33,739 nt of DNA from a virus. Below the pieces are notes generated by a model. The model did not search any database, had not been told where the DNA came from, and was given only the letters and a program-made list of their open reading frames with translations. The translations under genes were made by a program, and so were the position numbers. The stretch is from IMG/VR virus record IMGVR_UViG_3300046167_000019, positions 1 to 33,739 of that record; one strand, given 5' to 3'. Below are positions 1 to 33,739 of the stretch, piece after piece. The stretch's first letter is position 1. Every line of letters begins with the position of its first letter.

Positions 1-59
1 GCTATTACAATTATTCTTGGCGTTTACCTAACGTGGGCGTTATTACTTGGAGTATCATC

Positions 60-239
60 ATGAGCGCAGTAGATGGCATATGCCTGCACCAGATTGTGGG
101 TGAGTTGGAAAAGATCCAGAAAAGTATTGATTTGGATATTGCAGAAGCTAGACTAATGGAGCAGAAAGCAGTATGGTCTGCTTTGAGAGTCCACAGAAAA
201 GAAATTAGTGAACTGATAGAAAATATCAACAACGCATAA
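60..239 (+). CDS. Small hypothetical protein, first early gene
   Basis: This 59-residue protein is not recognised. It looks mostly helical and charged, with an acidic/amphipathic stretch from GELEKIQK to ENINNA and no membrane segment. I start it at ATG 60 because a TTGGAG ribosome-binding site sits at 48-53 with normal spacing. An upstream in-frame GTG at 33 would add nine residues and has no such site. The position at the head of the early arm suggests an early-expressed accessory protein, which is inference only. Confidence 0.6.
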   Translation: MSAVDGICLHQIVGELEKIQKSIDLDIAEARLMEQKAVWSALRVHRKEISELIENINNA

Positions 240-257
240 CAACAGGAGCAATAAACT

Positions 258-551
258 ATGGATTTATTTGAGCAACTAAGCATGAGCATTGGCGGGCAGA
301 GTGTAGCGGATCACATGGACTCGCTAAGGGTGACCAATGACGCAAGAGCAATTGAGGCGCTACACAAGCCAGCAGAACCTGAGCTAAAGGACTACGGTGT
401 CACTGTAGAGCTAACACTGTCAGCATTCAGCGAAGAAGAGGCAAAAGAGCTTGCCGCGTATTTAATGGAGTATGGAGTTCTGCCCGGAAAAGCGCCGGTA
501 GGCGCAGGATCAAATACATTTTGGGACATTGAGCGAGTCATAGAGCTATGA
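258..551 (+). CDS. Hypothetical early protein
   Basis: A 97-residue soluble protein of unknown function. A clear AGGAG at 244-248 lies nine bases before ATG 258. The C-terminal half, from about residue 48, has the look of a small alpha/beta domain: a VELTLSAFSEEEAKELAAYL strand-helix followed by a glycine-rich loop and a final WDIERVIEL strand. Its stop overlaps the ATG of the next small gene (ATGA at 548-551), so the two are probably translationally coupled. No catalytic motif is seen. Confidence 0.7.
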   Translation: MDLFEQLSMSIGGQSVADHMDSLRVTNDARAIEALHKPAEPELKDYGVTVELTLSAFSEEEAKELAAYLMEYGVLPGKAPVGAGSNTFWDIERVIEL

Positions 552-685
552 AAGCAAAGTGCAGCAGGTGCGGGCAGGAATACAACAGACACTCTATGGT
601 GTACGTTAACGGGGCGCTAGTGTGCGCTTCGTGTTACCTAGGGAAAACTAACTACAGCAAAAGGAAGCAAAGCAATGATCTATAG
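548..685 (+). CDS. Tiny Cys4 zinc-ribbon protein
   Basis: A 45-residue protein beginning MKAKCSRCGQEY and ending RKQSNDL. The cysteine pairs C5xxC8 and C26xxC29, about 17 residues apart, form a classic zinc-ribbon/zinc-knuckle pattern. A basic tail (SKRKQ) follows. The ATG overlaps the preceding stop as ATGA, which suggests coupling. Small zinc ribbons in phage early regions often bind nucleic acid or host transcription proteins, but no specific role can be assigned here. The cysteine spacing and coupling make a real gene likely. Confidence 0.6.
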   Translation: MKAKCSRCGQEYNRHSMVYVNGALVCASCYLGKTNYSKRKQSNDL

Positions 686-839
686 ACTAAGGAAAACAAA
701 ACGACGTTACGGCATGTCATTTGGTAGATGTTACATTGGGTACCATCTTGGCAAGCGTAGCCTGTACATACCACACGACAAGAGAATGTCCAAGATAACT
801 ATAAACGATTGGCATGGACTGACTGAGGTGGTCAAATGA
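675..839 (+). CDS. Small basic hypothetical protein
   Basis: A 54-residue, strongly basic protein starting MIYRLRKTKRRYGMSFGR and ending WHGLTEVVK. ATG 675 is preceded by AGGAAG at 662-667 with about seven bases of spacing. The gene overlaps the previous gene by 11 bases, and its TGA is embedded in ATGA with the next start at 836. It resembles a compact beta-rich domain of unknown function. The tight coupling on both sides and the good ribosome-binding site are the main support. Confidence 0.55.
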   Translation: MIYRLRKTKRRYGMSFGRCYIGYHLGKRSLYIPHDKRMSKITINDWHGLTEVVK

Positions 840-1075
840 GCACAACATATTGGGACGAAGACGTTACAGACAGTAACGAACAAGATCCAGAGCAACAAAG
901 GCGTGACATGATAGTTAACACCTTGAGTGAGTACAGGCTTAACGTAATGGCCGTTAGCGAGATGTTAGCCATGTGCAGTGCCTACCTACATGATGACCTG
1001 GAAAACCGCTCTACGGACGATCTAGAGGGCTTATACGCGCAATTGATAGGCCCAGAGTCACAGGAGGTACACTAA
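836..1075 (+). CDS. Hypothetical acidic early protein
   Basis: A 79-residue acidic protein with an Asp/Glu-rich N-terminus (MSTTYWDEDVTDSNEQDPEQ) and a helical remainder, unrecognised. ATG 836 overlaps the upstream stop (ATGA), and GAGGTG at 825-830 serves as ribosome-binding site. Its own TAA overlaps the next ATG (TAATG at 1073-1077). Charge and size resemble early phage proteins that bind host factors, but nothing in the sequence shows a partner. Confidence 0.6.
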   Translation: MSTTYWDEDVTDSNEQDPEQQRRDMIVNTLSEYRLNVMAVSEMLAMCSAYLHDDLENRSTDDLEGLYAQLIGPESQEVH

Positions 1076-1263
1076 TGCGCTGCAAAGCTTGTAATGTACT
1101 ACTTGAGGACAAAGATAAGCTAGATTTGTGCAATCCTTGCAACGTGGAGTCACTCAAAGCAAGGTTTCCAAATCAGAAGGTAGACGATAACGAAGTGCAA
1201 GATTTAGTCAAAAGACTTGAGGAGGTGAAACGGTTAACATCCCAACATGAATTATTTTCATGA
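1075..1263 (+). CDS. Small Cys4 zinc-ribbon protein
   Basis: A 62-residue protein with cysteines C3xxC6 and C19xxC22, a treble-clef/zinc-ribbon pattern, followed by a helix rich in Lys and Glu (DLVKRLEEVKRL). A strong AGGAGGT at 1060-1066 precedes ATG 1075. This is the last gene before a 129-base non-coding leader. It is the second Cys4 protein in 700 bases, after the one at 548-685, though the two share no other similarity. DNA or protein binding is likely from the motif, but the target is unknown. Confidence 0.65.
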   Translation: MRCKACNVLLEDKDKLDLCNPCNVESLKARFPNQKVDDNEVQDLVKRLEEVKRLTSQHELFS

Positions 1264-3394: not shown

Positions 3395-5114
3395 ACCAAT
3401 GTTCTTGGACATAGAGACTAACGGTCTTGATCCTGACACCATATGGTTAGCAGTAACTATGCAGGACGATGTGGTACAGGAACACTATGACCGTGAAAGC
3501 CTCGCAAAGGCGCTAGAAGGTGACTTCCCTGTAGTGGGGCATAACCTGATAGGCTTTGATATGCCGGTGTTAGAGAAGCTGTGGAGCATCACGGTGGACA
3601 AGAGCAGAGTAGAGGACACATTAGTGCTCTCCCGTCTTGCTAACCCACAACGTGAAGGAGGCCACAGGCTGTCTAACTGGGGTGAAATCCTGGGATTCCC
3701 TAAAGGAGATCACAGTGATTGGACTTGCCTGTCCGATGAGATGGTTGCTTATTGTATCCAAGATGTCCGTGTGACAGCTAAGGCATACAACAAGATGCAG
3801 CTAGAGCTACGCAAGTTTAGCAAGGAGTCTATTGCCCTTGAGCACGAGACGCAGTGGATTGTGCAGAAGCAGATACGTAATGGTTGGCTTTTGGACATGA
3901 GACATGCTATGGATTTGCTTGCTACCCTGAAGGAGCGCAAGCTTGTTGTGGAGGATGAAGTACACAAGGTGTTCAAGCCTAAGTGGGTTGACGTTAAGCA
4001 GGTAGTGCCAAAGACCAAGAAGGACGGTAGCCTGTCTAAGGTAGGACTCACTGACGATGAATACCAGAAGGTGCAACAGTCAGGCAACAGAGAACCTTTC
4101 ATGCGACAGGTACTCAAGCCATTCAACCTTGGCTCAAGACAGCAGATAGGTGAGTACCTGATTGACTTTGGATGGGAGCCAGAAAAGCTAACACCTACAG
4201 GTCAGCCAGTAGTAGATGAAGCAGTATTGTCTACAGTGAAGGACATACCACAGGCAGCGTTGATCGCTGAGTACCTGATGTTACAAAAGCGTGTTGCTCA
4301 AGTGCAGTCATGGGTAGATGAAGCTAACCCAGACACCGACAGAGTGCATGGCTATGTTAACACCAACGGTGCTGTTACTGGTCGTATGACACATTCTAAA
4401 CCAAACTTGGCCCAAGTACCGGCAAGCTACTCACCGTATGGCAAGGAATGCCGACAGTGTTGGGTTGCCAGAGAAGGCTATAAACTTGTAGGGTTTGACG
4501 CTAGTGGCCTAGAGCTACGCATGTTGGCCCACTACATGGACGATAAGGAGTACACTAATGAAGTCATTAACGGAGACATCCACACTGCTAACCAGCACCT
4601 TGCAGGACTTGAATCAAGAGATCAGGCAAAGACTTTCATCTACGCACTTCTCTACGGGGCAGGAGATGAGAAACTTGGAACAGTGGCTTCAGCAGGCAGA
4701 GCTGCTGGTAAAACACTTAGAGAACGATTTATGTCTAATCTCACAGCATATGCAGATCTTAAAGACAGAATTGTCAGAGAGTCAGAGCAAGGAACTATTG
4801 AAGGCTTAGACGGCAGGTTGTTACATATTAGGTCAGCACACTCTGCACTCAATACTTTACTGCAAAGTGCCGGTGCAATTGTTATGAAGAAAGCAATGTG
4901 TTTGCTGGAAGAGTATGCTACAATGTGGAAACTAGACTATTACTTTGTGGGGAACATCCATGACGAAGTACAAGCGGAAGTTAGAGCAGACCACGCAGAC
5001 AAGTACGGAAGACTTGCAGTCTCCTGCTTGGAAGCAGCAGGAACTGAACTGGGACTCAACTGTAAACTCACAGGAGAGTACCAAGTTGGAAGTAGCTGGG
5101 CAGACACACACTGA
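3384..5114 (+). CDS. Family A DNA polymerase with 3'-5' exonuclease
   Basis: A 576-residue replicative polymerase close to T7 gp5. The exonuclease domain has D9/E11 (FLDIETNG), a GHNLIGFD block (D59) and Y123xxxD127. Polymerase motifs are NTNGAVTGRMTHSKPNLAQ (326-344), motif A with D372 (GFDASGLELR), motif B R412/K416/Y420/Y424 and motif C H526-D527-E528. Tyr420 sits where T7 has Tyr526. GTG 3384 is chosen because AAGGA (3370-3374) precedes it; the in-frame ATG at 3399 lacks a site. It is shorter than the roughly 700 residues of T7 gp5. The segment between FKPKW (197-201) and FNLGSR (247-252), where T7 carries its thioredoxin-binding loop, looks reduced. Confidence 0.96.
   Translation: MPYKPMFLDIETNGLDPDTIWLAVTMQDDVVQEHYDRESLAKALEGDFPVVGHNLIGFDMPVLEKLWSITVDKSRVEDTLVLSRLANPQREGGHRLSNWGEILGFPKGDHSDWTCLSDEMVAYCIQDVRVTAKAYNKMQLELRKFSKESIALEHETQWIVQKQIRNGWLLDMRHAMDLLATLKERKLVVEDEVHKVFKPKWVDVKQVVPKTKKDGSLSKVGLTDDEYQKVQQSGNREPFMRQVLKPFNLGSRQQIGEYLIDFGWEPEKLTPTGQPVVDEAVLSTVKDIPQAALIAEYLMLQKRVAQVQSWVDEANPDTDRVHGYVNTNGAVTGRMTHSKPNLAQVPASYSPYGKECRQCWVAREGYKLVGFDASGLELRMLAHYMDDKEYTNEVINGDIHTANQHLAGLESRDQAKTFIYALLYGAGDEKLGTVASAGRAAGKTLRERFMSNLTAYADLKDRIVRESEQGTIEGLDGRLLHIRSAHSALNTLLQSAGAIVMKKAMCLLEEYATMWKLDYYFVGNIHDEVQAEVRADHADKYGRLAVSCLEAAGTELGLNCKLTGEYQVGSSWADTH
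5072..5076 (+). promoter_or_regulatory. Ribosome-binding site deciding a TTG start
   Basis: AGGAG inside the 3' end of the polymerase gene, nine bases before TTG 5086. It is the best-placed site for the GIY-YIG endonuclease gene. The open frame runs further upstream but with no comparable site. Confidence 0.5.
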
Positions 5115-5643
5115 AGAAAAACATTGTCCTAAGTGTGGAGTGACTAAGTCTTTAGATAAGTTTCACCGACATAGTAAGCATTCAAGCGGCTATGAGACTT
5201 ATTGTAAGCCTTGTCAGAATGAGAACAGCAGAAAAAGCAACAAGACAATGATGTGGGTTAACGGTAAACACATTTCTAAAAAACATCCTTTGTACAAACC
5301 TGGACGCTACAAGTCCTTCGGTGATGCAGCGTTTGAGTCACTGAGTAACTACAAGACTGCAAAGGAAGGTCAAGTGTACATCCTGTATAGTCCAGCTTAC
5401 CCTAGCTGGGTTAAGATAGGCATGGCAATAGATGCAGAGGACAGGCTAAAGCAATTCCAGACAGGTAGCCCATACAGGGACTACATCTTGATAAAGGCTT
5501 ATGACACTAAGGACAGGCGTAGAGCAGAGAGTGAGATACATGAGCTACTAAGGAAAACTCATGGCAATAAGAATGAGTGGTTTGTAATTGCTGCACCAGT
5601 GGCTGAACGTATACTAGATGGATACTTTGATGAAAACAACTAA
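5086..5643 (+). CDS. Zinc-finger GIY-YIG (T5orf172-type) endonuclease
   Basis: A 185-residue protein, counted from TTG 5086. The N-terminal zinc finger has C14xxC17 and C40xxC43 with an intervening KSLDKFHRH...GY pattern, as seen in phage HNH/GIY enzymes. The C-terminal half is a GIY-YIG fold of the T5orf172/Mug113 type: VYIL (97-100), VKIG (109-112), R120 and a RRAESEIHELL helix supplying the catalytic Glu, ending EWF (164-166). Such proteins are often free-standing homing-type nucleases or DNA-processing enzymes. It overlaps polymerase by 29 bases and the next nuclease by 26. The open frame reaches back to 4945, but that would duplicate coding of the conserved polymerase C-terminus. Confidence 0.75.
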   Translation: MEVAGQTHTEEKHCPKCGVTKSLDKFHRHSKHSSGYETYCKPCQNENSRKSNKTMMWVNGKHISKKHPLYKPGRYKSFGDAAFESLSNYKTAKEGQVYILYSPAYPSWVKIGMAIDAEDRLKQFQTGSPYRDYILIKAYDTKDRRRAESEIHELLRKTHGNKNEWFVIAAPVAERILDGYFDENN

Positions 5644-16289: not shown

Positions 16290-19130
16290 TTATGCGTCTT
16301 TGTCTACAGCTAATGGAATTGCGTTCACATCGTAAACGGCTCCACCCAAACTATCTGCCGCCAAGATTTGAGTGCCACTGACCGTTACAGTCAGGCTGTT
16401 GATGCGTAATGTTTCGTACAGGATAACAGAGGTACTATTAACACCAAAAATACCCACAAAGTTTCTGCCGTAAGAACCTGATGTCCTCACAATACTTACC
16501 ATATATATTCCCGAGCCTTTGTCTGATGTGATTGCATCGCCCATGTCTATAGCTAAAGTTGCGGAAGATCCTATAGATACATGTAAATTTTGTAAAATTC
16601 CTATATTAGAACCGGTTGCTGGTTTGATTTGACCTGCTGAGTCAATACGCATGCGTTCAGTGTTGTTTGTCTTAAAAATCATGTTGCCAGCGCCAACGAC
16701 GTTCAGTGTCCCTGAAGGTGATGTGGCGGTTGCGTGACCGATTGTGAACTTGTCTCCGCCTCCGCTGTCAAACTCAATGCCGCCAATGACGGATGAGTAA
16801 TCACCTTTGATTGATGCTCTGAAGGTAGAAGTAGGGCTGCTGGTGCCAATACCCACGTTGCCGTTATAGTCTAGGGTCATGTGGGGTGATCCTGACTCAT
16901 AGTTTTCTCTGCCAGCGGCAAATTTCAAATCCATGTTTCCAGAAGTTGTAGAAACTTGTCCCCACATGCCAGCGAAGTGATCTTCAGTTCCGCTGTTGTC
17001 ATCGTTACCAATTAAGAAAGCACCACAAAAATCGTTTACTGCAACGGCATTGTCTTCTCGGTAAGCGATGATCTCAGCACCTGTTGAGCTAGAACTGATA
17101 AGCTGCCTACTGGATTGGACTCCTGTAGGTATTGCGGTGATTCCTTGGAGTAGCTGACCACTCTCATCAATGACAACCTGCGAAGCTCCACCAGAAGCAG
17201 CAATACTGAAGCCAGTGCCGTCAGTGTATCCAAAATAACCAAGCGTGGAGCCAGCGTTTTCAAACTTTATTTGATTGCCAGACGCTCCACGGTCAAGAGT
17301 TAAAAGACCAGCAGCGGTGCCAGTAATACTTGCCGCATCAGCAGTCACTGTACCAGTAACGTCTATGCCTGTGGAGGTGGTGGCTAGTTTTTCGCTGTCA
17401 TCATAGTAGAGCCTTGCTTCTCCGTTGTTTGTCCCGACGAAATATCTTTCACCAGCAGTAGACTCAAGACGCACTTGACTGTCGCCTTGTATTTTTAGGT
17501 TGCCTGTGCCTTGGTCGCTAACGTAACTATTAGAACCATCATGATAAATCTGTAGGTCATCTCCAGCGCCAAAAGTAGCTTTAGCATTGTCAGCAAACTC
17601 AAGCGCCTCTGCGCTGCTATCCCATACTAATTTAGCGGTAGCTCCTCCATCTTCATATAGGCTAACATCGCCATTATCAGCAACTAATAAACGATTAATT
17701 GTAGATGTTCCATCAAAAGCTGCTATCTTGAATGAGCCAAAAACACCGTTGTCTCCTGTAGTCAGAACAGAAGCGCCAGCAGTGTGGCTTAAAGTTGTCT
17801 TTTGATTTGCACTTGTAGTATCGTTCAACGTAAGCGTAGGACTTGTTGCGTCTTCAATACTAAAAGCATCAGTAGTAAGAGTACCAGCAACATCTACATT
17901 ACCAGTAAAGTTAGCTCCAGCTAGAGCAGCTTTAGCATCTAACTGTGTCTGAATAGCTGAAGTTACACCGTCTACATAGTTAAGTTCAGTAGTTGTAGCA
18001 GTAACACCGTCTAGGATATTTAGTTCAGCAGTAGTAGAAGTAACACCATCAAGTATGTTTAGCTCTGCTGTTGTGCTTGTGACACCATCTAAGATGTTAA
18101 GTTCAGCAGCGGTAGAAGTAACGCCGTCTAAGATGTTTAGCTCTGCTGCGGTAGACGTTACACCATCAAGGATATTTAGTTCAGCAGTAGTGCTGGTAAT
18201 ACCGTCCAGTACATTTAGCTCTGCTGTAGTTACTGTAGCACCGTCTAAAATCTCTAGTTCTGCTTCAGTAATAGTAGCAGAGCCAATAGTAAACGAAGTA
18301 CCAATAGTGGGTGTGTTAAGGGTAGGTGACGTAAGCGTCTTATTGGTTAGCGTCTGTGTGCCTGCTAAAGTAGCTACAGTAGCATCAATAGCTAGAGTAA
18401 CTCCAGTACCTGAAGCAGTAGAGTCAATACCTGTACCACCTAAGATGCTTAAAGACTCAGAGTCTAAGTCAATGTCAATAGTAGAAGAACCATCAGTTAC
18501 ATCAAGATCCTGTGCAGTTACATTAGAATCTACATATGCCTTAATAGACTGTTGAGTAGCTAGATGAGTAGCTGAGTCAGAAGCCATGTTATCTTCGTCA
18601 AGAACAGCACTACCTGAAACACCTGTGTTAAGAACAGGGCTTGTCAAGGTCTTATTAGTTAGTGTCTGTGACCCAGTAAGTGTAGCTACAGTGCTGTCAA
18701 TAGCAAAGGTTACAGCGTTACCAGAGCCGCTTGTGTCTACACCAGTGCCTCCAGTAAACGTAAGAGTTTCTGAGTCTAGGTCAATGCTCAGGGCACCACC
18801 GGAGTCTGCTTGAAAATCTAAATCTTCTGCGGTTATCTGAGCATCTACATAGGCTTTAACAGACTGTTGAGTAGGCACAAGAGTAGCACTGTTAGATGAC
18901 ATATTGTCTTCATCAACAAATGCAGTAATAGCAATAGTGCCGTCTGAAAGAGTTTGGAATGTAGTGGTGCCTGTAAGCGCACCGTTATTAGTGTTTAGCT
19001 TAGTTCCAACAGCAGTTTGAATGTTGTTAAACTCTGTGTCAATCTCAGTTCCTTTAACAATCTTGCCAGAGTTACCAGAAGGTAAACTGTCTTTTGCTGC
19101 AAAGTTAGTTGTCTTTGTGTAATCACTCAT
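16290..19130 (-). CDS. Tail fibre protein with tandem repeats
   Basis: A 946-residue receptor-binding-type fibre. The N-terminal part (about 1-60, starting MSDYTKTTNFAAKDSLPSG) probably anchors it to the tail. Two related blocks of about 105 residues follow (about 73-168 and 178-273, each DEDNM...TLTNKTLTSP). Next come eight 13-residue repeats of the TAELNILDGVTST type (289-392). A long beta-rich C-terminal region (400-946) has GIGTSSP and MRIDSAG motifs common before fibre tips. No C-terminal self-cleaving S74 chaperone domain is evident. It follows the hub gene with a TAATG overlap. Confidence 0.88.
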   Translation of the reverse strand: MSDYTKTTNFAAKDSLPSGNSGKIVKGTEIDTEFNNIQTAVGTKLNTNNGALTGTTTFQTLSDGTIAITAFVDEDNMSSNSATLVPTQQSVKAYVDAQITAEDLDFQADSGGALSIDLDSETLTFTGGTGVDTSGSGNAVTFAIDSTVATLTGSQTLTNKTLTSPVLNTGVSGSAVLDEDNMASDSATHLATQQSIKAYVDSNVTAQDLDVTDGSSTIDIDLDSESLSILGGTGIDSTASGTGVTLAIDATVATLAGTQTLTNKTLTSPTLNTPTIGTSFTIGSATITEAELEILDGATVTTAELNVLDGITSTTAELNILDGVTSTAAELNILDGVTSTAAELNILDGVTSTTAELNILDGVTSTTAELNILDGVTATTTELNYVDGVTSAIQTQLDAKAALAGANFTGNVDVAGTLTTDAFSIEDATSPTLTLNDTTSANQKTTLSHTAGASVLTTGDNGVFGSFKIAAFDGTSTINRLLVADNGDVSLYEDGGATAKLVWDSSAEALEFADNAKATFGAGDDLQIYHDGSNSYVSDQGTGNLKIQGDSQVRLESTAGERYFVGTNNGEARLYYDDSEKLATTSTGIDVTGTVTADAASITGTAAGLLTLDRGASGNQIKFENAGSTLGYFGYTDGTGFSIAASGGASQVVIDESGQLLQGITAIPTGVQSSRQLISSSSTGAEIIAYREDNAVAVNDFCGAFLIGNDDNSGTEDHFAGMWGQVSTTSGNMDLKFAAGRENYESGSPHMTLDYNGNVGIGTSSPTSTFRASIKGDYSSVIGGIEFDSGGGDKFTIGHATATSPSGTLNVVGAGNMIFKTNNTERMRIDSAGQIKPATGSNIGILQNLHVSIGSSATLAIDMGDAITSDKGSGIYMVSIVRTSGSYGRNFVGIFGVNSTSVILYETLRINSLTVTVSGTQILAADSLGGAVYDVNAIPLAVDKDA
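17955..18266 (-). repeat. Eight tandem 39-bp coding repeats in the fibre gene
   Basis: Eight consecutive 13-codon units encode variants of TAELNILDGVTST. Outer units are diverged (ELEILDGATVT, TELNYVDGVTSA) and inner ones nearly identical. Synonymous sites differ between copies, so the array is old and selected at protein level, not a fresh slippage product. It likely forms a rigid shaft. Confidence 0.9.
18312..18914 (-). repeat. Duplicated ~105-residue fibre block
   Basis: Two head-to-tail copies, residues about 73-168 and 178-273, share DEDNM, TQQS(V/I)KAYVD, SIDLDSE/DIDLDSE, GGTG(V/I)D and QTLTNKTLTSP at a constant offset of 105 residues. This points to an internal gene duplication that lengthened the fibre shaft. 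Confidence 0.85.
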
Positions 19131-32325: not shown

Positions 32326-32461
32326 AGAAATACTTAACTACATAGTCATCTAGGTCTTTCTCTTCCTCACACTCATACTCAACATCTAACTCAGGATCTC
32401 CGTCCCAGTTTAGATCTTCTTGTTGTGCTAAGGTCTTTTTGTACTCTTTGTTAGTAAGCAC
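32318..32461 (-). CDS. Small acidic protein before terminase
   Basis: A 47-residue candidate starting at GTG 32461 (overlapping the stop of the peptidase gene as TAGTG) and ending YVVKYFYD inside the first codons of the terminase gene. It is strongly acidic (LNWDGDPELDVEYECEEEKD). The ribosome-binding site is weak, so support is the coupling on both sides and the composition. It is unrecognised and could be non-coding. Confidence 0.5.
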   Translation of the reverse strand: MLTNKEYKKTLAQQEDLNWDGDPELDVEYECEEEKDLDDYVVKYFYD

Positions 32462-32815
32462 TAACTATACGTCCACATTACAGGTGTATCAGTAGCTCTA
32501 ATGTCTACATGCACAAAACCTCCAGCAACACCAATACCAGTAAAGCCTAACTTAATAGCATTCTTTACTATAGTGTACCTTTGTAAACCTGAAGACACAG
32601 CTATGTCCGCTGCTATGCCTTGTGCATGTGTACCTGGTTTTTTCTTACCTAGCTCAATAGGATGGTCAGGTGATCTATAGCCACTTGTGATAACAAAAGG
32701 AAAACCACAGTGCTCTCTAAGTTCATCCAAAGGCATATATTAACTCATCTTCTATTTCATTCTCACCTGTCGCTTGACAAGCAAACTCATCCCTACTGAA
32801 ATACTTAAACGTCAT
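32461..32815 (-). pseudogene. M15-type D-Ala-D-Ala peptidase (endolysin candidate), split by a frameshift
   Basis: Two overlapping minus-strand frames together make one Peptidase_M15_3-like protein. The first, from ATG 32815, reads MTFKYFSRDEFACQATGE to DELIYAFG and stops at 32723. The second, open from 32736, continues DELREHCGFPFVITSGYRSP and carries the zinc ligands H37, D44 (GTHAQGIAADI) and H76 (FVHVDI), counted from ATG 32736. One extra base in CCTTTGG near 32728-32731 explains the break; a +1 shift there restores LIYAFDELREH. Full length would be about 117 residues, as expected for the family. It could be a sequencing or assembly error, true inactivation or programmed frameshifting. 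It is the only wall hydrolase seen. Confidence 0.8.
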
Positions 32816-33206
32816 TGTTGGTGTATTCTCCTTCAATAGGGTCATTGGAGTTGTCATTATTCTGTGATGAGATGGTACTAGGGACACCTGAGATAGTAAT
32901 TTGTACAGACTGTCTACCACCAGCACTATCCTTCTCAAAGTAACTAAGGGGTAACATCCTGTCCATGACTAGTTTCCAAGCTGCTGCTTGATTCTTATGG
33001 TCATCATTAAGTGCTGCATCAAATATACTGTCTAACACTCTACGGGACTTAGGGCTAGCTAACATCCTAGCCTTGTACTCATTGATAATTGAAGCATCAC
33101 CTTTAGGTCTACCTACCTTACCTCTAGAGCCAGTAGTCTTCTCAACTATCTCACCCTTCCTAGGTCTACCTCGCTTACGCTTTGGAGGATCATCTTGATT
33201 ATCCAT
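32805..33206 (-). CDS. Terminase small subunit-like DNA-binding protein
   Basis: A 133-residue protein, first of the late arm. It opens with two AT-hook-like motifs (KRKRGRPRK and KVGRPKG), followed by a helical core (INEYKARMLASPKSRRVLDSIFDAALNDD, given here by its start INEYKARM) and an acidic, Asn/Ser-rich tail. Location just ahead of the peptidase and large terminase and the DNA-binding character suggest the small terminase that picks the packaging site. A repressor-like role for an AT-hook protein is the main alternative. ATG 33206 is about 31 bases from the predicted transcript start, with AAGG about 11 bases upstream. Confidence 0.72.
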   Translation of the reverse strand: MDNQDDPPKRKRGRPRKGEIVEKTTGSRGKVGRPKGDASIINEYKARMLASPKSRRVLDSIFDAALNDDHKNQAAAWKLVMDRMLPLSYFEKDSAGGRQSVQITISGVPSTISSQNNDNSNDPIEGEYTNNDV

Positions 33207-33243
33207 AATGTATTTACCTTAACATTCTTTAAGATACCTATTT

Positions 33244-33272
33244 ATTATAGCATACTTTTTAGCATTTGTCAA
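33244..33272 (-). promoter_or_regulatory. Consensus sigma70 promoter for late unit 1
   Basis: On the minus strand TTGACA (33272-33267), a 17-base spacer and TATAAT (33249-33244) form a perfect housekeeping promoter. Start of transcription should be near 33237, 31 bases before the small terminase ATG. The spacer end AAAAAGTATG and the ATAGGTA downstream of the -10 are shared with the promoter at 27480-27508. Confidence 0.9.
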
Positions 33273-33293
33273 GTACTTTTTACTGTTATTTTC

Positions 33294-33333
33294 TTGACTG
33301 AGTCAAAGTTTTGACTTTACTTGTGTTAACAAG
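33294..33333 (-). promoter_or_regulatory. Cluster of short dyads upstream of the late promoter
   Basis: GTCAAA-GT-TTTGAC (33302-33315) is a perfect short dyad. CTTGT-gtta-ACAAG (33320-33333) is another. TTGACT occurs at 33294-33299 and again at 33311-33316. They lie 20-60 bases upstream of the late -35 box and could be operators for an activator or repressor. The arms are short, so chance is possible. Confidence 0.35.
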
Positions 33334-33480
33334 AGGTTACATAAGTTAGTAAATGCTTACTTTTTTATTAATTTACTGTTGTTTTCTAAATTCTACTTTT
33401 GAGTACTGGAGTGCCTACTACAATTATTCATCAGCGCCACAGCCCCTCCCCGTACCGTTATTGTTAGCCCACCTTAGTAC

Positions 33481-33661
33481 AACAGTTAGACTTAGGCGCA
33501 CCTTAGCCCAACAGTTAGACTTAGGCGCACCACAGAGTACAACAGTTAGACTAAGGCGCACCACCTGGCCCTAACGGTTAGACTTAGGGGCGCAACAGAG
33601 TACAACAGTTAACCTAAGTCTACCTGAGAGGACTTAGCCTAACGGTTAGACTTAGGGGCGC
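33481..33661 (+). repeat. Iteron-like array, about 31-bp spacing
   Basis: The core AACAGTTAGACTTAGGCGCA appears at 33481-33500 and 33510-33529. Variants are at 33541-33560 (CTAAGG), 33573-33594 (AACGG, extra GG), 33604-33621 (diverged) and 33641-33661 (AACGG, extra GG). Start-to-start distances are 29, 31, 32, 31 and 37 bases, close to three helical turns, so the copies face the same side. A second-order repeat ACAGAGTACAACAGTTA occurs at 33532-33548 and 33595-33611. Copies 5 and 6 also form an inverted pair (33608-33620 with 33631-33643, 11 of 13). It resembles replication iterons or stacked operators. Confidence 0.85.
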
Positions 33662-33694
33662 TTGAGAATGCTGGAGAGTGTGTGCCTATATAGT

Positions 33695-33739
33695 ATCTCT
33701 CTCTTTTCCTCCTCCTCCGTTGTTGTTGTTGAGAGAGAT
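33695..33739. repeat. Terminal inverted repeat around triplet runs
   Basis: ATCTCTCTC (33695-33703) and GAGAGAGAT (33731-33739) are perfect inverse complements. The loop is TTTT followed by CCT and GTT triplet runs. The window ends on the last base of the right arm. It may be a real genome end or packaging feature, or simply where an assembly stopped at a hairpin or low-complexity stretch. Confidence 0.7.

Follow-up and report, generated by a model that had tools for sequence, protein, structure and literature searches.

The right end of the 33,739-bp stretch of viral DNA analyzed here (the window) carries a conserved array of direct repeats that may well be an iteron-like origin/control module between divergent operons, with the array as the presumptive binding half of a cis-acting unit. 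Six units, five strong and one weak, lie on the forward strand at 33480-33656. Units 1 (33480..33496; 0 mismatches to the consensus) and 2 (33509..33525) both read CAACAGTTAGACTTAGG and are followed by unit 3 (33540..33556; CAACAGTTAGACTAAGG) and by units 4 (33572..33588) and 6 (33640..33656), which have the sequence TAACGGTTAGACTTAGG in common. Between the latter two lies the degenerate unit 5 (33603..33619; CAACAGTTAACCTAAGT, three mismatches), which overlaps an inverted half-copy on the minus strand (33613-33629) and is also present in the relatives L001, L023, and L026. An earlier note had described about six motif copies at ∼31-bp spacing; there are indeed six, one of them degenerate, and the unit-to-unit intervals are 29, 31, 32, 31, and 37 bp, so that the last one departs from the pitch. 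The higher-order repeat mentioned in that note corresponds to a ∼63-bp period detected by TRF, and of its inverted pair the half-copy was recovered. At least three specific repeats on a helical pitch, as expected of iterons, are thus present (six units, 29–32 bp).

When a 20-mer was matched at up to three mismatches, the window gave five matches, whereas 100 dinucleotide-preserving shuffles gave none. The 17-bp consensus found six units in the slot occupied by the array, compared with at most one in 2,000 mononucleotide shuffles, and scanning the rest of the window with it yielded no further forward unit with three or fewer mismatches. A pattern search of viral contigs returned 54 loci with two consecutive exact units (one contig being counted as two loci, and locus L129 belonging to an unrelated phage); about fifty viral contigs carry the array. 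From 184 units in 48 distinct arrays, the core consensus YAACRGTTAGWCTWAGG was derived, and the spacing in these arrays was 31 bp (73 times), 29 bp (24 times), or 32 bp (23 times). The unit logo has a degenerate center, with A or G at position 3, and a left flank (CWKAGYM before YAAC) that is partly mirrored; read in this way, each unit appears to be an imperfect dyad of ∼25 bp centered on AAC-R-GTT, of which the core would be the better-conserved part. An RNA-like hairpin around one unit (GCGYACC...GGTRCGC) was considered too weak, as it pairs perfectly in 10 of 42 arrays and its mean is only at the top of the shuffles.

The position of the array is conserved as well. Measured from the start of the putative small terminase gene (TerS), the anchor for all array distances, the first unit is found after 269–277 nt, or after 296–297 nt in a more distant clade and 248 nt in one contig, and the orientation of the array relative to TerS does not vary. 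Looking for the motif and its 31-bp period in related genomes, which the earlier note had proposed as a check, therefore had a positive outcome, and neither absence from relatives nor an artefactual origin, either of which would have spoken against the array, is compatible with a shared array at a fixed distance from TerS. The array is non-random, conserved, and real, and it is not a private assembly artefact of the window contig. One match of the pattern search (L178) was a chance match within a coding region. The array region had no match at E values up to 10 among annotated phages, and the array pattern occurred in 0 contigs of 84,980 bacterial and archaeal species genomes. Relatives of the large terminase (TerL) were found on only four contigs in bacterial genome records, all from MAGs of differing phyla, and therefore do not point to a reliable host.

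The putative TerS (32805..33206, minus strand), which has an AT-hook-like N-terminus and no Pfam or PHROG match, was assigned by its position upstream of TerL and is the first gene of the leftward late operon. At the opposite end of the window, small early ORFs are directed rightward (33..1263, plus strand), and in relatives these come ∼1.3–1.8 kb after the array. In relatives, contigs continue from TerS across the array and into the rightward early genes without a break, which places the array between the divergent late and early operons and bears out the expectation of the earlier note that it lies upstream of the early genes. Compared with these relatives, ∼1.3–1.8 kb is missing between the two ends of the window, and another contig, G023, is broken at these two points as well. 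Replication is encoded by T7-like genes (SSB-like protein, primase-helicase, family-A polymerase, and endonuclease I), and no RNA polymerase gene was noticed within the window. Judged by DNA polymerase and portal, HTVC103P and HMO-2011-type marine podoviruses are the nearest isolates, the polymerase being only 47% identical; these phages share the divergent early/late layout and the replication genes. At the corresponding junctions of HMO-2011 and HTVC103P, neither a DnaA-box cluster, nor a row of sigma-54 sites, nor a 31-bp array was found. GC skew at fourfold-degenerate sites was too noisy to be informative for origin location.

Other features of the gene complement were recorded in passing. 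An ORF at 4945-5643 (plus strand) overlaps the 3′ end of the DNA polymerase gene; by eye, it resembles a GIY-YIG/T5orf172-type nuclease and is possibly a mobile endonuclease. An endolysin/peptidase-type gene (32461-32736, minus strand) shares ∼79% DNA identity over ∼96 bp with Pseudoalteromonas phages H105/1, HS1, and HS5, a similarity that hints weakly at the host range or at an exchange of genes. Within a large tail-fibre-like gene (16290-19130), TRF detected a coding tandem repeat of 39 bp in about seven copies (17959-18230).

Between TerS and the array lies an A+T-rich stretch (33207..33404), defined by nearest-neighbor stability and alignment, which is a candidate DNA unwinding element and also houses the late promoter, a sigma-70-type sequence (TTGACA-17-TATAAT, 12/12 consensus; 33244..33272, minus strand) that faces leftward, into TerS and the rest of the late operon. 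The A+T-rich stretch contains the least stable 150 bp of the whole window (33225-33374), and in six relatives the A+T-rich flank of the slot ranks within the top 0.3% for instability. The A+T-rich neighbor typical of iteron origins is thus present, as a putative unwinding stretch. A further intergenic stretch that is very A+T-rich and among the least stable of the window precedes the gene for the SSB-like protein (1264-1392) and is a possible alternative origin; in G001, G003, and G005, the instability maximum of the genome is located at a comparable distance from TerS. Left of the array, alignment revealed a block (33405..33456; AGTGCCTACTACAA ... CCCCTCCCC) consisting of a C-rich part and a CTACTACAA part, both of which are kept beside every array type described below. 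To the right of the array is another conserved element (33661..33695; CTTGAGAATGCTGGAGAGTGTGTGCCTATATAGTA), just past which the contigs turn variable. The last ∼43 bases of the window (33697..33739; TCTCTC...GTTGTTG) are of low complexity and absent from relatives; they are probably assembly or read junk, and the true sequence therefore probably ends near 33696. Early genes of several relatives (the early end of L003, as well as L004, L007, and L010) are preceded by repeated promoter-like units with an inverted repeat flanking the −35 box (for example, GAGCCTATTGACACCAGTAGGCTC...TACACT), which may be operators of another regulator.

The slot between the two operons is not always filled by the same array. 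Loci for this comparison were chosen by TerL alone, and the slot was set to 750 bp. The motif of the window array (array A) had a density of 1.48 per kb inside the slot versus 0.014 per kb outside, DnaA boxes 2.41 versus 0.085 per kb, and sigma-54-type sites 1.08 versus 0.005 per kb. Four to 12 DnaA boxes of the TTATCCACA type, mostly spaced by 11 or 22 bp, were present in the slot of 11 TerL-selected loci; 15 others had two to four sigma-54-type sites (logo GTTGGCAYG-N4-TTGCAT, with a GG-N10-GC interval), almost all aimed at the early genes. The slots of L029, L037, L070, and L080 are mixed. The slot of the window itself contains 0 DnaA boxes (TTWTNCACA), as opposed to a DnaA-dependent, oriC-like locus, and none of the sigma-54 sites (TGGCAC-N5-TTGCW) that would make up a sigma-54 promoter array. 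In seven loci (L073, L063, L079, L065, L034, L036, and L050), the DnaA-type array is followed by a gene of 215 aa that matches Pfam GP88 (PF17338) and is also present in several unclassified loci. Mapped onto the TerL tree, array class changes at least 24 times over all classes, a part of these changes involving the class “none,” which includes loci with TerS cut by the contig end and is not readable as true absence. The TerL proteins of L002 and L006 are 99% identical to that of the window, yet both loci have sigma-54-type arrays; L055 (sigma-54-type) and L056 (DnaA-type) encode TerS proteins that are 100% identical, and in several other pairs with differing arrays TerS identity is 97–99%. 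Because the arrays differ while the terminases are nearly identical, the array behaves as a cassette that does not follow the terminase.

This independence also makes it improbable that TerS binds the array as a pac/cos-type site beside the cut site, perhaps within a short direct terminal repeat. Packaging sites adjoin TerS/TerL in many phages, and so does the array; furthermore, an exact 210-bp end repeat in one relative (G020) spans just the array, and the right-hand element is where a few contigs stop, the window and G023 among them. However, a site recognized by TerS should change together with it, and a direct comparison, the exchange between L055 and L056, showed identical TerS proteins facing different arrays, which disfavors a TerS packaging site; A-type arrays in turn were found with TerS proteins 64–100% identical to that of the window. 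The motif is shared, moreover, by a phage whose TerS and TerL are unrelated. This 25-kb contig (G028; L129 and L179), whose terminase, portal, and capsid are unrelated to those of the window and whose primase is 20% identical, carries three units at 31-bp spacing between a TerS-like gene and TerL (L129 790-880), and it has small genes in common with the group, including two that are 75–79% identical to neighbors of the window's TerL. The motif is thus apparently not bound by TerS; it either passes from phage to phage or is recognized by a factor that they share. Next to the right-hand element, moreover, lies a variable early cassette that can by itself break assemblies, and other full-length contigs overlap elsewhere, that is, they assemble as circles: the end overlaps of long relatives are 2,573 bp in the nrd genes (G025), 126 bp (G024), 161 bp (G022), or in the DNA polymerase gene (G005), with G003 as a further case, and such differing places are expected of circular assembly maps. 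The repeat of G020 (37,231 bp; IMGVR_UViG_3300046171_000002; L138 1-210 and L112 11912-12121) is possibly a short terminal repeat, because 210 is not a usual assembler k-mer, or else a shared graph edge beside the variable early cassette. If there is a terminase site in this region, it is possibly the conserved block at 33405-33456 rather than the array.

A candidate for the binding partner emerged from the early genes. Clustering of early ORFs revealed a family of ∼78–88 aa in 23 of 23 array-A loci (19 of the near and 4 of the far clade) and in none of the seven sigma-54-type and four DnaA-type loci. Among de-duplicated loci whose early region covers 3 kb or more, 31 contigs had both the gene for this ∼80-aa protein and the array, 24 had neither, and 0 had only one of them (naive Fisher P = 4e-16, which overstates the association because the contigs are from related phages). 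The reverse search of viral contigs with the protein found 28 loci, 28 of which carry the array, including three that the array pattern had missed. In L130 and L146, whose TerS and SSB-like proteins are 100% identical to those of the window, the gene is present; its place is the gap between the two window ends, and it is therefore not visible in the window because that stretch is missing there. The family was not detected in G028, which has the three-unit array and, at 25 kb, may be incomplete. AlphaFold modeled the near-clade protein with confidence (pLDDT 85.7, pTM 0.71), as four strands followed by two helices; the model of the far-clade protein is of low confidence and has the same order of elements, and the homology between the two proteins is weak (E 0.004–0.01 among 855 ORFs). 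Searches for similar folds gave no significant match (best Foldseek E 0.19 against the PDB; best Z 4.6, which is below the stated noise level of the tool), and PUR-alpha repeats, baculovirus LEF-3, and phage protein P7, which top the lists, were dismissed as noise. No helix-turn-helix is evident in the protein, and Pfam and PHROGs contained nothing convincing and no known initiator domain. Nevertheless, its co-occurrence makes this early protein the most likely binder of the array in this lineage, with a host factor as the alternative. The binders suggested in the earlier note found no support: the Cys4-type early protein accompanies arrays of all types, and the AT-hook-containing small terminase does not track the array.

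The best explanation for phased dyads that lie beside unstable DNA and can be replaced by DnaA boxes is that they serve as the recognition half of an origin/control module. That a protein binds there, that replication starts there, that the DNA unwinds, and which protein is the binder are all inferred, and the module would work as follows. The six imperfectly palindromic sites of ∼25 bp, arranged at a pitch of three helical turns (31 bp), would each take up a copy of one dimeric protein; the bound copies would face nearly the same side of the helix and, as at iteron origins, could build a nucleoprotein complex with wrapped DNA. The strain that this complex would put on the adjoining A+T-rich stretch (33207-33404) might let the primase-helicase and the DNA polymerase of the phage load, and the same complex could couple or control the early and late promoters on either side. 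In sister phages, host factors would perform the same task via the DnaA boxes or sigma-54-type sites in the slot. Of the functions proposed earlier for the array (origin, packaging signal, or operator), the first and the last were strengthened by the DnaA arrays in the slot of relatives, the low-stability flank, the helically pitched dyads, and the sigma-54-type sites, while packaging via TerS lost ground. The origin and the transcriptional readings are not mutually exclusive. Against an origin it counts that the sigma-54-type sites found in this slot suit transcription more than replication, and that an A+T-rich promoter region beside an operator would look similar.

Short of probable, but plausible, is therefore that the array is purely a row of transcriptional operators or enhancers for the divergent promoters, used by a phage or host regulator and devoid of a replication role, with the sigma-54 holoenzyme or DnaA acting as the regulator in relatives instead. 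The orientation of the sigma-54-type sites toward the early genes, the consensus late promoter on the other side of the array, the early small genes coming directly after it in relatives, and the strict pairing with one early gene, which resembles that of a regulator and its operator, are all in line with this. On the other hand, rows of up to 12 DnaA boxes at one-turn spacing beside unstable DNA characterize origins far more than promoters, a row of six operators is long for a simple switch, and no clear sigma-70 promoter was found immediately to the right of the array. That the array is a decoy soaking up a host DNA-binding protein (DnaA, sigma-54, or another factor) to redirect host physiology is very improbable. 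All three kinds of array are rows of multi-copy sites, two of them match global factors of the host, and the occurrence of the A motif in an unrelated phage would be consistent with a shared host factor; however, a decoy would need neither the fixed position and orientation, nor the unstable flank, nor the divergent-promoter context, the association with one phage gene suggests a phage partner, and the array pattern is missing from the bacterial and archaeal genomes searched. Returning to the origin/control module, it is a tentative and rather doubtful extension that the array and the ∼80-aa protein would be a new, self-contained origin/regulator pair, in which an undescribed family of small, site-specific phage DNA-binding proteins takes the place of host DnaA or sigma-54 at a phage origin that is conserved in other respects; an uncultured group of marine viruses would then exchange its initiation/control system in cassette form.

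Direct-repeat iterons in helical phase next to an A+T-rich region are a known origin design, and those of lambda bind dimers of the O protein (PMC5043065); a phage satellite, PLE, has iterons together with its own initiator, RepA_N (PMC7145576), and DnaA boxes are used in related origins (PMC5043065, PMC7145576). The window resembles such iteron origins (lambda ori/O, iteron plasmids, and PLE/RepA_N) in that phased, dyad-type repeats lie beside an A+T-rich stretch and in that there is a candidate replicon-specific partner protein, indicated in the group of the window by co-occurrence. In contrast to classical iterons, however, which are spaced by ∼19–22 bp, the pitch is 31 bp (three turns), the candidate partner of ∼80 aa is outside the known initiator families, and the repeats lie between divergent operons instead of in or beside an initiator gene. 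Clusters of the bacterial oriC type are matched by the closely spaced boxes of sister phages, in the homologous slot and next to A+T-rich DNA, but the window's own array lacks a DnaA box and the setting is a phage with a T7-like replisome. The S-type (sigma-54-type) arrays of relatives agree with the −24/−12 consensus of sigma-54 (RpoN) promoters, including the correct 10-bp GG-GC interval; unlike ordinary promoters of this class, the copies are in tandem, 25–57 bp apart, and they are absent from the slot of the window. T7 has arrays of short repeats, with units of ∼7 bp, that flank its proven terminal repeat. T7 and the window both have a podovirus-like genome with rows of short repeats where late and early genes meet, whereas the units of the latter are 17–25 bp long and a terminus beside them would be putative. 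The array thus seems to work like an iteron or operator array and is a candidate member of the origins.

In the open-access literature, which was covered in part, so that its silence is not proof of absence, no phage precedent was found for DnaA-box arrays, sigma-54 early promoters, or exchangeable DnaA, sigma-54, and private arrays. How replication starts and how early genes are timed in HMO-2011-like podoviruses, which have a T7-like replisome and no recognized RNA polymerase, is apparently undescribed in the literature searched. A conserved slot with three interchangeable arrays beside a near-constant terminase amounts to a natural swap experiment, which points to a control or origin locus, predicts host-factor dependence from sequence alone, and names a candidate binder. 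At this slot, the virus probably either begins to copy its DNA or turns on its genes.
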